NCBI RefSeq assembly: GCF_900188325.1
Contig: NZ_FZPD01000001.1
Coordinates: 124,001 to 188,000, forward strand
Reading direction: 5' to 3'
Length of the DNA: 64,000 bases
DNA from: Ekhidna lutea
GTDB taxonomy: Bacteria > Bacteroidota > Bacteroidia > Cytophagales > Cyclobacteriaceae
Each line of letters starts with the position of its first letter. Position 1 is the first letter of the stretch. The position numbers were made by a program, and so were the translations under genes. Of this stretch, positions 8,575 to 45,074 are shown one piece after another. The notes beneath the pieces are model-generated. The model did not search any database, was not told the origin of the DNA, and worked only from the letters and a program-made list of their open reading frames with translations.

Positions 8575-8655
8575 TCATTTCGAACGCAGTGAGAAATCTT
8601 TACCTCACACATTGACAATGAGATTTCTCGTCGTTGCACTTCCCTCGAAATGACA
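8575..8655. repeat. Palindromic intergenic repeat, TTTCGAA/GAGAAATCT family
   Basis: The outer arms CATTTCGA and TCGAAATG and the inner arms GAGAAATCT and AGATTTCTC make a nested palindrome of about 80 bases between rsmI and the pterin dehydratase gene. It shares GAGATTTCTC and TTCGAAATGAC blocks with the repeat at 43774-44000. A stretch reading AACCACAAAGGACACAGAG just upstream (8523-8541) may be part of another dispersed element. Confidence 0.7.
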
Positions 8656-20096: not shown

Positions 20097-20232
20097 CTTA
20101 TTCCCCTGCCTTTGCCGGCAGGCAGGCTTGGGAGGATAGCTCTTGCTATCCGAGTCATGGGAATCTATTATCAGTTCTATGGATTGAGATTCCCAAGTCT
20201 CGTTCGTCCCTCACTTGCAAGGGAATAGGGAT
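20097..20232. repeat. Palindromic element (copy 1) with a nested CCTGCC hairpin
   Basis: Outer arms TATTCCC and GGGAATA, a GATAGC/GCTATC hairpin, and an inner GGGAATC/GATTCCC pair match the element at 24767-24873. Relative to that copy, 22 bases (20106-20127, CTGCCTTTGCCGGC...GGC) are inserted in the left arm. The insert is itself a small palindrome related to one at 26787-26817. The element fills the convergent interval up to the PhzF-family gene. Confidence 0.8.
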
Positions 20233-20243
20233 TGAATCTAATT

Positions 20244-23517: not shown

Positions 23518-23630
23518 CATCCCCCTGCTCTCACACCTTCTCTCACACCCCCCTTCTTAAGGGGGATTAAGTTCTGAAGAATTCCCCCTTAGCAAAGGGG
23601 GGTGCGTATGCCAGAGGGCTGCAGGGGGAT
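23518..23630. repeat. Full CATCCCCCTGC...GCAGGGGGAT element (copy A)
   Basis: Terminal inverted repeats ATCCCCCTGC and GCAGGGGGAT and subterminal ACCCCCCTT and AAGGGGGGT bracket a core AGGGGGATTAAGTTC...CCCCCTT. The same core occurs at 24596-24688 in the opposite orientation (31 bases identical as reverse complement) while the right outer ends keep the same sense. No coding potential. Confidence 0.8.
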
Positions 23631-23748
23631 ATAAATACTCAAAATCCTATCCCAACCACCAAAGCGTCGAACGCCTGTGTTAAGGAAGGAATTGATTCGC
23701 AGTTTAAGTTGTTGCTGTTTTAGGCTCGAGATCAACTAACTTTAATAC

Positions 23749-24018
23749 ATGACGCAGAATCAAAAACTCAACGCGATCCTGAGGCACCTGAATTATATTT
23801 CTAATCATAGAAATAAAAGCATCCTGACTGCCTCAGACGTTTCAAGGTACTTTTTTAAGGAATTTGAAGTAGAGATCCCGGTTGGAGAAGCCAAACGTCT
23901 GTGTCAGCTATTGATCGATAACAACGTAGTAGCGGATGTAGATACCACCGATGAGCTATGTATCGGTTATAGCAATTCCACCTCAAAGGCATTGCAAAAT
24001 TCAAAATACATGGATTAA
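23749..24018 (+). CDS. Small hypothetical protein (89 aa)
   Basis: I do not recognise it. The sequence is soluble, basic at the N-terminus ('QNQKLNAILRHLNYISNHRN') and contains 'LTASDVSRYFFKEFEVEI' and 'VGEAKRLCQLLIDNNVV', compatible with a small winged-helix fold. It lies between two copies of the same palindromic repeat (23518-23630 and 24596-24688). Codon use and composition look ordinary for the genome, so it is probably a real gene. Confidence 0.5.
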   Translation: MTQNQKLNAILRHLNYISNHRNKSILTASDVSRYFFKEFEVEIPVGEAKRLCQLLIDNNVVADVDTTDELCIGYSNSTSKALQNSKYMD

Positions 24019-24046
24019 GAAAGTCATCTAGAACATCTTGCTGTTA

Positions 24047-24093
24047 AATCCTCCCCCTAACCCCCGAAACGTCGGACCGCCTCCAGAGGGGAC
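24047..24093. repeat. Degenerate CCCCCTAACCCCC element
   Basis: ATCCTCCCCCTAACCCCC and CCTCCAGAGGGGACA resemble the CCCC/GGGG elements elsewhere in the window, separated by a 14-base block (GAAACGTCGGACCG). It sits in the leader of the YHS gene. Confidence 0.4.
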
Positions 24094-24155
24094 AACTAGC
24101 CGACAAACGAACTTCTCACCTGATCTTTCAACCCTTCATTCCCGTACCATAAGAT

Positions 24156-24590
24156 ATGAGAACAGCAACATCTATTTTACTTATCGCTTTTTGTTTCATT
24201 GCCTCAGCTCAGAAAAGTCCTGTCTACACTACCAATGATGGTGCCATCAAAGGGTATGACCCGGTTGCGTACTTCAAAAATGGAGAGCCGGTAAAAGGAA
24301 GTGAATCTTTTTCTTTTGAATGGACAGGTGTCGAATGGCGTTTTAGTTCACAGGAAAATCTGGAGGCATTTAAAGCTGAGCCGGAACAGTACGCGCCTCA
24401 ATTTGGTGGGTATTGTGCATATGCCGTTGGCAATGGCTATACATATGAGTCCAGTCCCATGGCCTGGCGTATTGTGGACGGAAAGCTCTACCTGAATTAC
24501 AGCAAGGGCATCCAGAAAAAATGGGAAGCAGATCGGGATGCTTTAATTAAAAAGGCAGAAGAGAATTGGCCGGGGGTTGTGGAAGAGTGA
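24156..24590 (+). CDS. Exported YHS-domain protein
   Basis: The 144-residue protein starts with a signal peptide (residues 1-18, ending ASAQ) and carries a YHS-type domain at about residues 28-120: 'IKGYDPVAYFKNGEPVKG', 'FEWTGVEWRFSSQENLEAF' and 'PQFGGYCAYAVGNGYTYES'. In this family the region is thought to bind metal or small ligands and is common in periplasmic proteins that follow stress genes. The single cysteine in the GGYCA motif is typical. The stop codon is 5 bases before a palindromic repeat. Confidence 0.9.
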   Translation: MRTATSILLIAFCFIASAQKSPVYTTNDGAIKGYDPVAYFKNGEPVKGSESFSFEWTGVEWRFSSQENLEAFKAEPEQYAPQFGGYCAYAVGNGYTYESSPMAWRIVDGKLYLNYSKGIQKKWEADRDALIKKAEENWPGVVEE

Positions 24591-24595
24591 TTTGA

Positions 24596-24688
24596 ATCCC
24601 CCTAGCCCCCTTTACTAAAGGGGGAATTCTTCAGAACTTAATCCCCCTTTGAAGGGGGGTGCGAAGGCTATGACGGCTGCAGGGGGAT
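24596..24688. repeat. CATCCCCC-type element (copy B, inverted core)
   Basis: ATCCCCCTAGCCCCCTTT at the left and AAGGGGGGTGCG...GCAGGGGGAT at the right are the outer arms. The core reads GGGGGAATTCTTCAGAACTT, the reverse complement of the core in copy A (23518-23630). The two copies bracket the 89-residue gene and the YHS gene. Confidence 0.8.
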
Positions 24689-24766: not shown

Positions 24767-24873
24767 TATTCCCTTGGGAGGATAGCAACAGCTATCCGAG
24801 TCATGGGAATCTCCTAGTTAAAGGTGTAGAGATTCCCAAGTCTCATTCGTGCCTCACTCGCAAGGGAATAGGG
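24767..24873. repeat. Palindromic element (copy 2, intact)
   Basis: TATTCCCTTGGGAGGATAGC is followed by a GATAGC/GCTATC hairpin, then GAGTCATGGGAATC, a short spacer, GAGATTCCCAAGTCTC and finally CGCAAGGGAATAGGG. Copy 1 is at 20097-20232; the two agree closely except for the 22-base insertion in copy 1 and the variable spacer. Confidence 0.8.
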
Positions 24874-24945
24874 TTTGTGAATGATCCTCATTTCTAACTT
24901 CTTCGTCGTTCGCAAGCCTGCAGTAGGCAAGGGAAAGGGAATGGC

Positions 24946-42471: not shown

Positions 42472-43251
42472 TTGAAATTTCTGATGACCATATCGCTGAT
42501 CCTCATTGGGGTTGCTGTGCAGGCGCAGCGTACATACGTCTATGGAGTGGTTCGTGATAGTTTGAGTGGTGACGAAATGATTGGTGTGCACGTAAGAAAC
42601 ATAGATGCCGGCAGCTTGACATCCACCAATGAGGAAGGAAAGTTTAGGATTCCCTCACAAATAGGTGATACACTGGTCTTCTCAAGTGTAGGTCATACCA
42701 CGCTTGCCTGGATTGCAGATTCCACCTGGTTTAAGGAGGAAGAAATCGAATTCTTACTTCCGGTTAATACAATCTACCTGGATGAAGTGGTCGTAGGGGA
42801 ATTTCCTGAATATGAGCGGTTCAAAGAATTGATCATTCAAGAGCAACCGAAAGACACCACATTCAAAATATTTGGTGTACCCGAAGTGGTGATGGATCCT
42901 TATCCTGTCCTTGAAAAAAACGAATACCTACACCCGGCTTTTGTGTTTTTTCATCCGGTCTCAGCTCTTCACCATTCTTTTAGCAAAAAGGAAAAAGAGA
43001 AACGAAAGATGCAGCAGATCATGAAACGCCAGCATATTACTACAAAAGCTAATCTCAAATTTACACGTGATTGGGTGGCAGAAAACACGAAACTGGAAGG
43101 TGACAAACTCACCAGCTTCATTGAATATTGTGATTTCTCAATAGACTATCTCGCCAGTGCCACTGTCTTCGATATTCATCAGCGGATGATGGCATTGCTA
43201 CCTGACTTTTTGGAGGAGTATAAGGAGAAGGAGAGGTTTCGGGAGGGGTAA
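42472..43251 (+). CDS. Secreted protein with carboxypeptidase-like regulatory domain
   Basis: Residues 20-100 form a carboxypeptidase D regulatory-like domain ('VYGVVRDSLSGDEMIGVHV', 'TSTNEEGKFRIPSQIGDTLV'), followed by a helical C-terminal part of about 150 residues ('HHSFSKKEKEKRKMQQIMKR'). The start is a TTG at 42472 giving a lysine-containing signal peptide 'MKFLMTISLILIGV'; the internal ATG at 42484 gives a weaker one. In Bacteroidota this domain often sits at the N-terminus of TonB-dependent receptors; here no receptor follows. Function unknown. Confidence 0.8.
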   Translation: MKFLMTISLILIGVAVQAQRTYVYGVVRDSLSGDEMIGVHVRNIDAGSLTSTNEEGKFRIPSQIGDTLVFSSVGHTTLAWIADSTWFKEEEIEFLLPVNTIYLDEVVVGEFPEYERFKELIIQEQPKDTTFKIFGVPEVVMDPYPVLEKNEYLHPAFVFFHPVSALHHSFSKKEKEKRKMQQIMKRQHITTKANLKFTRDWVAENTKLEGDKLTSFIEYCDFSIDYLASATVFDIHQRMMALLPDFLEEYKEKERFREG

Positions 43252-43265
43252 TCAAAATTATTTTT

Positions 43266-43445
43266 AAGAGGGGCTACTCAGCCTAATGGAAGTGACGGTG
43301 CTCTGTACTAGCGTCACCTCGAAGAAGGCACGACTGAGGGGTCTCCTTGATTTGGAGCAATAAATGGGGAGATTTCTCCCTCCTCAATATTCATCCCAAA
43401 ATTTATCAGGACTTCTCCCTCGTACCTCGGTTCGAAGTGACGGTT
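43266..43445. repeat. Long flanking repeat, left copy
   Basis: The block AGTGACGGTGCTCTG...GCGTCACCTCGAAG, then CTCCTTGATTTGGAGCAATA and GGGGAGATTTCTCCCTCC, ending TTCGAAGTGACGGT, recurs at 43774-44000 in the same orientation. It includes the inner pair GTGACG/CGTCAC. The right copy has about 40 extra bases. Confidence 0.85.
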
Positions 43446-43463
43446 CTAATTATATTTAGCTTG

Positions 43464-43756
43464 ATGGAAAAAGGAGGTGCTGTTTATATTATGACAAACC
43501 AACATCATACTGTTTTCTACACTGGTGTTACTTCCGAATTGATTCCTCGTGTATATGAGCACAAAACCAAACTCTACCCCAAAGCTTCACTGCAAAATAC
43601 AACATTGATAAGTTGGTCTATTTTGAGGGATTCCATTCTATAGAAGAAGCTATTGATCGTGAGAAACAGGTTAAAAAGTATCGAAGAGAAAAGAAGATTA
43701 ATCTCATTGAGAGTATAAATCCTGAATGGAAAGATTTGTATGATGACCTTGAATAG
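43464..43756 (+). pseudogene. Frameshifted GIY-YIG nuclease-like gene
   Basis: The reading starts 'MEKGGAVYIMTN' and continues 'VFYTGVTSELIPRVYEHK', the GIY-YIG first and second motif region of small URI-type nucleases. Near 43583 the frame breaks: after 'YPKAS' the expected FTAKYN continues one frame over as 'KYNIDKLVYFEGFHSIEEAI', then 'REKQVKKYRREKKINLI' and 'NPEWKDLYDDLE' before a TAG. The span of 293 bases is not a multiple of three, consistent with loss of one base in a homologous gene of about 97 codons. Two long direct repeats flank it. The loss could also be a sequencing error. Confidence 0.8.
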
Positions 43757-43773
43757 CTATTGGTAAATCATAG

Positions 43774-44000
43774 AAGAGGGGACTTCTCACCTTAATGGAT
43801 TCGAAGTGACGGTGCTCTGGTACTAACGTCACCTCGAAGAAGGCACGACTGAGAGGTCTCCTTGATTTGGAGCAATAAATGGGGAGATTTCTCCCTCCTT
43901 CGTCGGTTCGAAATGACGAACGAAAAAAGAAGTCTCATCAATATTCAGCCCAATCTATCAGAAGGGGACTTCTCCTTCGTACCTCAGTTCGAAGTGACGG
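43774..44000. repeat. Long flanking repeat, right copy
   Basis: This copy matches 43266-43445 over most of its length, with an extra TTCGTCGGTTCGAAATGACG block. The end GAAGTGACGG sits directly before the stop codon of the DUF3089 gene (44001-44003 read on the minus strand), so the element abuts a gene end. Confidence 0.85.
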
Positions 44001-45074
44001 TCAATCCAAATATTCTTTCTCTCTCAAATACGTCTCCACACGCTCTGCTACATTTTCCCGGATATTCATATAAAAGAGGTTGTAATCCACAATGTGATAG
44101 CGTTTCCAGTTGATCAGGAAGTTTCCAAAAAACTTGGGCTTATTGATCCAGAGCATGCCATCCTTGTTTTGAGCGTCAGAAAGCCCCGTTCTTATCTTTT
44201 TGAAATTCTTCAAAATCCCTCCCTGGTTTGCTCCCCAGGAAACATAGGCAGTGTCTGTCGTCCAACTCAAAGGATTCACATTTAGTGCATCTGCATACCA
44301 AAAGTCATGGTTAGGCGGGTAGTAGTCACGTGCATATGTATTCCATGTCAACCAACAACCTATTTCAGTAGGATTATCGCATATTGGAATGTTGCTAAAA
44401 GTTCCTTTATCCATAGGCATACCTACAATGTAAGCGGCTACCAATTGCTCCATTAAAGGCTTGTTTTCAAAGAATTCACTCAGCAGCTTTGTCGCATGGT
44501 TAGTTCCCTGACTATGTGATGCAATTATAATCGGCCTGCCTTGATTCCAGTTATCAAGGTAATATTCAAATGCCCTTTTCACATCTGTATAAGCAAACTC
44601 TAACGCTTCAACCTTTAAAGGCAGGTTACCCATACTGTAAATGCCAATGTGTGCCTGCCGATAAAGTGGTGAATAAACTTTTGCTGAACCATTGAACACG
44701 CTCGCTTGATATTTGATTGTTGAGTTTGCTATTTCCTTGTTCAGCTTCTCATCATTTACATCAGCAAACCAAGGGTGCTCTTTGTCCTGTTTTTTGGAAT
44801 AGATGGTAGGATAAATGAAGAAAACATCTACAGCAGCATTTGCCTGATATTCTTTAAGCTCACCTTTTCCTGGTACTTCATCGGCCATATCCTTAACTTC
44901 CGGATGGGCAATCCAGTATTTCATCTCTGAATAGTCGGGTACTGGTGGGACAAGCGATAAATCCTCTATTGTGTATTTGGTTTTAAATGTATTCTTAGAC
45001 TGAGAATAGCCTCTTTGCGACAAAAACATGCAAAAGCAAACAAGAAATCCTTTATAGATTATTCTTATAGCCAT
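44001..45074 (-). CDS. Exported DUF3089 alpha/beta-hydrolase-like protein
   Basis: A signal peptide (residues 1-25, ending RGYSQ) is followed by the DUF3089 domain: 'DVFFIYPTIYSKKQ', 'YQASVFNGSAKVYSPLYRQA' and the nucleophile-like 'PIIIASHSQGTNHATKLLSE'. The S-x-x-x-G motif around HSQG gives a plausible catalytic serine. The C-terminal 'DYNLFYMNIRENVAERVET' is a typical terminal helix. Likely a periplasmic esterase or peptidase-like enzyme of unknown substrate. It is divergent from katG across 65 bases. Confidence 0.9.
   Translation of the reverse strand: MAIRIIYKGFLVCFCMFLSQRGYSQSKNTFKTKYTIEDLSLVPPVPDYSEMKYWIAHPEVKDMADEVPGKGELKEYQANAAVDVFFIYPTIYSKKQDKEHPWFADVNDEKLNKEIANSTIKYQASVFNGSAKVYSPLYRQAHIGIYSMGNLPLKVEALEFAYTDVKRAFEYYLDNWNQGRPIIIASHSQGTNHATKLLSEFFENKPLMEQLVAAYIVGMPMDKGTFSNIPICDNPTEIGCWLTWNTYARDYYPPNHDFWYADALNVNPLSWTTDTAYVSWGANQGGILKNFKKIRTGLSDAQNKDGMLWINKPKFFGNFLINWKRYHIVDYNLFYMNIRENVAERVETYLREKEYLD

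Follow-up and report, generated by a model that had tools for sequence, protein, structure and literature searches.

A frameshifted GIY-YIG nuclease gene bracketed by clusters of CGTC-tagged hairpin repeats in Ekhidna lutea

We have found in Ekhidna lutea a small unit that is probably the decayed form of a URI-type GIY-YIG nuclease gene with clusters of CGTC-tagged hairpin repeats, the nuclease's own target, on either side. The unit lies in the window, the 64,000-nucleotide stretch that was analyzed (contig NZ_FZPD01000001.1, positions 124,001 to 188,000), between two convergent genes that directly abut each other in related genomes. There is good support for a GIY-YIG-linked, REP-like system in the sense of an association between nuclease and repeat, and we infer that the nuclease itself may drive the spread of the unit.

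CGTC-tagged REPs are widespread hairpin repeats of Bacteroidetes, Neisseria and other bacteria, in which a CGTC or TGTC tag accompanies a palindromic stem, often in paired opposite copies; they have been reported without a dedicated transposase (Di Nocera et al. 2013, PMC3733652). According to that paper, stems measure 8-9 bp and loops 4-5 nt in the repeat families, and the Neisseria CGTC-1 repeats are dRS3; by word search, GIY-YIG is absent from its main text. Nothing linking GIY-YIG to REPs or to partial tRNA copies was found in a literature search whose coverage left most subscription papers outside. RAYT/REPtron systems consist of a Y1 HUH transposase flanked by GTAG REPs. The unit resembles these systems and their REPINs in having a nuclease gene flanked by palindromic repeats, and in that a sister repeat, found beside a second nuclease of the same genome (L005), has inverted doublets and solo copies elsewhere; it differs in having no HUH/Y1 protein, in its tag (CGTC, not GTAG) and in its GIY-YIG enzyme. 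Free-standing GIY-YIG homing endonucleases are likewise small GIY-YIG genes present or absent at a site, but the unit described here differs in carrying its repeat on both sides of the gene and in leaving no repeat at the empty site.

The sequence-only reading of the window had described a frameshifted GIY-YIG gene enclosed by long direct repeats, the right one ending at a neighboring stop codon, and this arrangement was confirmed by coordinates and alignment (Table 1). The stop codons of the flanking genes are separated by 749 bases. In direct orientation the two repeat copies are 90% identical over 126 nt and 83% identical over a 66-nt 3' part (E about 1e-44 in a comparison within the window), and about 39 nt of the right copy are missing from the left. 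The end of the right copy (44000-44001) falls at the stop codon of the DUF3089 gene (44001-44003, minus strand). The 180-227 bp stretch had been taken for one repeat; it is instead a composite of hairpin elements of about 32 nt each. In its own genome this repeat is not a dispersed REP family and forms only two local clusters. A search of that genome (4.23 Mb in 16 contigs, 99% complete) gave no further copy above noise, the next best match having E = 0.019, so that, judged by the assembly, the repeat occurs at this locus only. The 12-mer TTCGAAGTGACG, with at most one mismatch, occurred 14 times genome-wide vs 17 times for the reversed control.

Table 1. Features of the inserted unit and its neighbors, in window coordinates
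Feature	Position	Strand	Remarks
Left neighbor gene, CarboxypepD_reg-like domain	42472..43251	+	outside unit; used for empty-site comparison
Whole inserted unit (repeat cluster, nuclease, repeat cluster)	43252..44000	+	missing from orthologous junction in 6/6 genus relatives
Left repeat copy, partly decayed	43266..43444	+	aligned to right copy
Hairpin element GTCA-CTTC...GAAG-TC	43410..43441	-	pattern match
URI-type GIY-YIG nuclease pseudogene	43464..43756	+	PF01541; frame broken between 43587 and 43598
Right repeat copy	43774..44001	+	ends at stop codon of DUF3089 gene
Hairpin element GTCA-CTTC...GAAG-TC	43781..43810	-	long imperfect stem with next element, z -2.0
Hairpin element GTCA-CCTC...GAGG-TC	43828..43858	+	pattern match
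Hairpin element GTCA-TTTC...GAAA-TC	43886..43917	-	pattern match; this part deleted from left copy
Hairpin element GTCA-CTTC...GAAG-TC	43967..43998	-	pattern match
Right neighbor gene, DUF3089	44001..45074	-	outside unit; used for empty-site comparison

The nuclease gene runs from an ATG at 43464 to a stop at 43754-43756, with its two halves in different frames. The N-terminal half matches PF01541 at 26 bits, above the cut-off of 22.6, and the C-terminal half at 18.1 bits, below it; the PF01541 domain and the conserved Y, YxG, R, H and E positions identify the product as URI-type GIY-YIG. Outside the broken stretch both halves keep, as judged by eye, the invariant positions of an alignment of window-type nucleases (A1), except for a single L in whose place F stands. 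Searches with defence-system and NCBIfam profiles yielded nothing beyond weak, partial hits, and the solved structures a single weak one, to the UPF0213 protein BH0048. Identity to the closest relatives is 68-83% per half. Against two close relatives pS was 0.83 and 0.95, with silent sites saturated, and pN 0.18 and 0.16; because the differences are mostly silent, the gene must have been under selection for most of that time. The frameshift could instead be an assembly error.

In order to compare the insertion site between relatives, ten genomes of the genus were examined. The DUF3089 gene was found in seven, including that of the window, and had no match in three. In all six other genomes with both neighbor genes, the CarboxypepD_reg-like gene directly abuts the DUF3089 gene, and no repeat or nuclease match was present at any of the six junctions, which bears out the empty sites that the sequence-only reading had proposed to look for. 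The orthologous site is therefore occupied in one genome and empty in six, with three genomes lacking a DUF3089 match. In three of the six relatives the overlap of the two stop codons amounts to 4 bases; for the remaining three an overlap of the gene ends by 13 or 16 bases was computed, but here the protein alignment may extend beyond an earlier stop. These relatives show only 67-74% identity in DUF3089, and only one window-type unit has an empty-site comparison of this sort. As all six junctions are empty, the block of repeat, nuclease and repeat was most likely gained here as one piece; judged from the junctions, one gain seems likelier than precise loss in six lineages. Evidence from a single site thus supports the arrival of the unit in one block. 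The tetramer AATC is present at either end of the unit and is too short to be called a target-site duplication; no reliable duplication of this type was seen, nor any excision or insertion intermediate.

Each hairpin element has the form GTCA-N4-(3 to 30 nt)-N4'-TC, in which N4' is the reverse complement of N4, and is about 32 nt long. The five elements of the window's unit use the stems CTTC (three elements), CCTC and TTTC, all of them paired. The pattern occurs 181 times in the genus and family samples described below and 212 times in a sample of named organisms (best 80 of at least 569 relatives), and these totals dropped to 4-15 and 5-22, respectively, when the second arm was swapped for its reverse, its complement or the same letters. 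There are 34 different stems across all elements, and two or more different stems occur within 53 of 139 units, from which it follows that pairing was kept while the sequence changed. The base before GTCA is C or T in 347 of 393 elements. The inner part measures 9-24 nt (5-95% range) and only a 5-base outer stem is required. Upstream of the nuclease the nearest elements follow no orientation rule (51 with the gene, 49 against), and the nearest downstream ones are skewed (31 with, 56 against). DNA folding of the window's repeats gave z = -2.0 for the best stretch and -0.9, -0.8 and +0.6 for the other three; being only modestly better than for shuffled sequences, folding is weak as proof of repeat structure. 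Like the published CGTC-tagged REPs (PMC3733652), the elements of all these units carry the tag beside a palindromic stem; unlike them, they need only the 5-base outer stem around the inner part of 9-24 nt, and the window's repeat is confined to two local clusters rather than dispersed in high copy number.

The sequence-only reading had also predicted that nucleases of this type would be associated with flanking repeats in other genomes. A direct repeat spanning the gene, with 500 nt considered on each side, was termed a bridging repeat and scored against a threshold of 31 bits, the maximum among 119 background positions in the window. The ten genomes of the genus hold 51 GIY-YIG matches, split by eye into 31 small URI-type genes and 20 others. 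A bridging repeat above 31 bits was present in 26 of the 31 small genes, both nuclease classes (see below) taken together, and in none of the 11 other GIY-YIG genes with both flanks, one of which (L073) is a stop-ridden copy and not another type; the remaining nine, all UvrC, had no full downstream flank and were uninformative. The flanks of L048 are approximate owing to a wrong reading frame, and the tandem copies L053/L058 and L042/L048 were counted singly. The family sample covers 78 genomes of 76 genera among the matches listed, which favors high-scoring ones, and consists of the loci listed plus 80 further regions, with three at contig starts and the last of the list left out. Its 112 units were reduced to 102 by removal of seven at contig ends and three with long proteins. 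Among these (matches listed, both classes), bridging repeats of at least 31 bits occurred in 62 of 102 units vs 1 of 66 control genes, and repeats of at least 50 bits in 52 of 102 vs 0 of 66 controls from the same regions. A wider scan with alignment A1 took the best 80 of at least 569 relatives in named organisms, of which four had no flanks and 76 were used; bridging repeats were found in 32 of 50 loci from Bacteroidota and 14 of 26 from elsewhere, i.e. 46 of 76 vs 8 of 168 control genes.

Counts of the hairpin element itself agree with the bridging repeats. For the genus and family, 63 window-type loci were used, namely the 86 without a nearby tRNA minus 23 that lie in the tRNA part of the nuclease tree and were removed by hand. 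At least two elements within 500 nt were present in 40 of 63 of these loci (matches listed) and in 54 of 76 named loci of many phyla (best 80 of at least 569), compared with 5 of 187 control stretches of 1 kb and 1 of 69 tRNA-class nucleases; with the 23 units put back, the first figure becomes 40 of 86. At least one element was present in 47 of 63 (matches listed) and 64 of 76 (best 80 of at least 569) vs 19 of 187 controls and 6 of 69 tRNA-class nucleases, so that 16 and 12 window-type loci, L184 (below) among them, have none under the strict pattern. By phylum, two or more elements occur in 33 of 50 loci of Bacteroidota, 6 of 7 of Pseudomonadota, 5 of 5 of Bacillota, 2 of 3 of Fibrobacterota and 8 of 11 further loci that are each alone in their phylum or without one (best 80 of at least 569). 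Two or more repeated GTCAY 10-mers within 400 nt were found at 48 of 63 and 62 of 76 loci (the latter from the best 80 of at least 569) vs 12 of 342 control windows. The predicted association thus stood in the genus, the family and the named sample of many phyla, far above controls.

The kind of repeat also tracks the nuclease tree: 107 labelled units required 43 changes, compared with a mean of 57.1 and a minimum of 54 in 1000 shuffles. Species relatedness contributes to this agreement, yet several nuclease lineages are present in the window's own genome, and a different repeat goes with each. Nuclease and flank similarity are correlated positively, although weakly, among the 86 units without tRNA (Spearman 0.145; maximum of 999 permutations, 0.074).

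Among the matches listed, the closest nucleases are those of Fulvivirga lutimaris (L225), a Flammeovirgaceae bacterium (L226) and the family member L184. The window's repeat type is found at L225 and L226, each with six copies of GTCACTTCGA, and L184 has two of GTCATTTCGA, yet zero elements under the strict pattern. The window's neighbor genes are absent from all three within the stretches examined. The repeat beside L005, which is related to the window's, has only few solo copies and inverted doublets. Its pattern occurs in G000, G001, G006 and G009, the four genomes in which that branch of nucleases is represented (by L005, L066, L052 and L070), once in G004 and in none of the other five genomes; 8 of 12 distinct sites in the four genomes lie within 1 kb of the nuclease, but only 1 of 4 in the window's own genome. 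One solo copy lies in the window at 8575-8655. A separate locus of the genome (G000:C6:754620-756693; L003, L004, L031) has two closely similar nuclease genes 1.8 kb apart in a cluster of some ten full or partial copies of a different palindromic repeat; beside L003 no GTCA-form element was found. Within 5 kb, the window also holds other long repeats together with a 54-nt inverted pair that has GGGG/CCCC palindromes (20127-20234 and 24773-24877; 23549-24659).

A sister class of the nucleases is linked to tRNA genes. An intact tRNA gene lies within 400 nt of 69 of 155 small units (65 loci), compared with 0 of 528 control positions, and is on the strand of the nuclease in all 69. These include L002 (G000:C10:583145), L037, L054, L042, L047, L055, L059, L060 and 61 further units. 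On the opposite side of the nuclease, 59 of 69 units have a partial copy of that tRNA at 20 bits or more vs 3 of 60 control stretches farther off; at 30 bits the figures are 45 of 69 vs 1 of 60. The tRNA kind tracks the nuclease tree (13 kinds, 19 changes; mean 50 and minimum 44 in 1000 shuffles). The window-type and tRNA classes occupy largely different parts of the tree, with 19 class changes over 153 rows, much of this number coming from tandem second copies without a tRNA of their own. In 19 of 69 units, e.g. L037, L103, L137 and L166, an insert of 16-86 bases splits the partial copy, often at D or T loop positions; most of these inserts fold well alone (paired fraction 0.47-0.84, without a shuffled control), an example being CCTGCCTGCCGCAGGCAGG. 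At a tRNA-Gly/tRNA-Leu site, the best 30 loci from 77 matching genomes included five with a nuclease, four between the tRNAs and one after the second, and 25 in which none was found. The gap between the two tRNAs is 423 and 504 nt in L198 and L211, which have no nuclease; judging by its letters, it may encode a four-helix-bundle-like protein. The tRNA-linked units look like a family targeting tRNA genes. No description of such a group was found in the literature, which is weak evidence given the limited coverage.

Small GIY-YIG proteins with cognate repeats are also found in Neisseria. Chenal et al., writing in Nat Commun in 2025, reportedly showed that Ssn GIY-YIG nucleases cut NTS repeats as single strands and affect natural transformation in Neisseria; that work reportedly did not deal with whether an entire block of nuclease and repeats is present or absent at a given site. 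The Neisseria gonorrhoeae homolog examined here, which we take to be ssn, is 44% identical to the intact relative L184 and is densely surrounded by CGTCATTCCCGCG-type repeats, which are elements of the kind described here, with the stem TTCC eleven times. (Two 2.17-Mb N. gonorrhoeae records filed as plasmids, NZ_CP119140.1 and NZ_CP119142.1, look like chromosomes by their size.) The window nuclease, which we assume to be of the Ssn kind, is likewise a small GIY-YIG protein surrounded by cognate CGTCATTCCC-type repeats, but the gene is broken and its repeat has other stems. In view of the reported Ssn/NTS work, the pairing of nuclease and repeat as such is probably known already. What the present analysis adds, as far as checked, are the counts in many phyla, the rule for the stem, an empty site and a connection with CGTC REPs.

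It is hypothesized that the nuclease would recognize its repeat as a single-stranded hairpin, through the GTC tag and a short stem that differs between nuclease lineages, and would nick it. Cutting of single-stranded or replicating DNA at the hairpins might let the nuclease and its flanking hairpins copy or recombine elsewhere, and might also multiply hairpins around the nuclease gene. The unit would then have entered the junction of the two convergent genes, where the frameshift and the deletion in the left cluster would have ended its function. The sequence-only reading had proposed a REP-like system driven by GIY-YIG; the association of nuclease and repeat, and the tendency of the repeat kind to follow the nuclease lineage, agree with that proposal, whereas the lack of dispersal of the repeat in this genome does not.

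The most serious rival, plausible if short of probable, supposes a sedentary nuclease gene of the host that puts the repeats to some other use; the repeats would collect near it because sites there are protected or preferred, and the block would have come by ordinary horizontal transfer and recombination. This would fit the purely local occurrence of the window's repeat and the few solo copies of the related L005 repeat, the other neighborhoods in which the nearest nuclease relatives lie, and the reported role of Ssn in DNA uptake and not in transposition. It fits less well with the compact empty junction of six out of six relatives, which holds no repeat to guide recombination, and with the many tandem nuclease copies of other genomes (among the matches listed). 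That RAYTs drive the repeats, with the nuclease as a passenger, is very unlikely, even though the genome has four Y1_Tnp (RAYT-like) genes; at L328 (G000:C9:212662), a gene for a RAYT-like Y1 transposase is flanked by 163-nt direct repeats that are 96% identical. Of 14 Y1_Tnp matches in the genus, ten loci were examined; at none of these ten does an identical GTCAY 10-mer occur twice or more within 400 nt, and the best repeats on their flanks have a different sequence, which disfavors RAYT as the driver; in PMC3733652, too, no CGTC repeat is reported next to tyrosine transposases. The single-copy, broken state of the unit would suit a dying gene whose intergenic surroundings were duplicated by chance, with nuclease and repeat unlinked, but we give this almost no credence because the association counts from other genomes and phyla contradict it, and the nearest nucleases have the repeat type in common.

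We therefore favor the reading of a decayed unit of nuclease and target hairpins. A wider version of it, which is doubtful, holds that URI-type GIY-YIG nucleases are the missing mobilizing partner of CGTC-tagged REPs, recognizing single-stranded hairpins by the GTC tag and a lineage-specific stem and moving nuclease and repeat as a unit across bacteria, as a counterpart of RAYT and REP; the sister branch would target and land at tRNA genes, whose single strands form hairpins too, and the window would hold a dead insertion whose empty site survives in relatives. The counts presented here tie repeats of the CGTC-REP form to one nuclease family in many phyla, and supply a simple rule for the repeat, a tag and a stem that varies but stays paired, together with an occupied and empty site pair for a nuclease-plus-repeat unit. 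The sister nucleases, with their link to particular tRNA genes, may represent an additional type of element.
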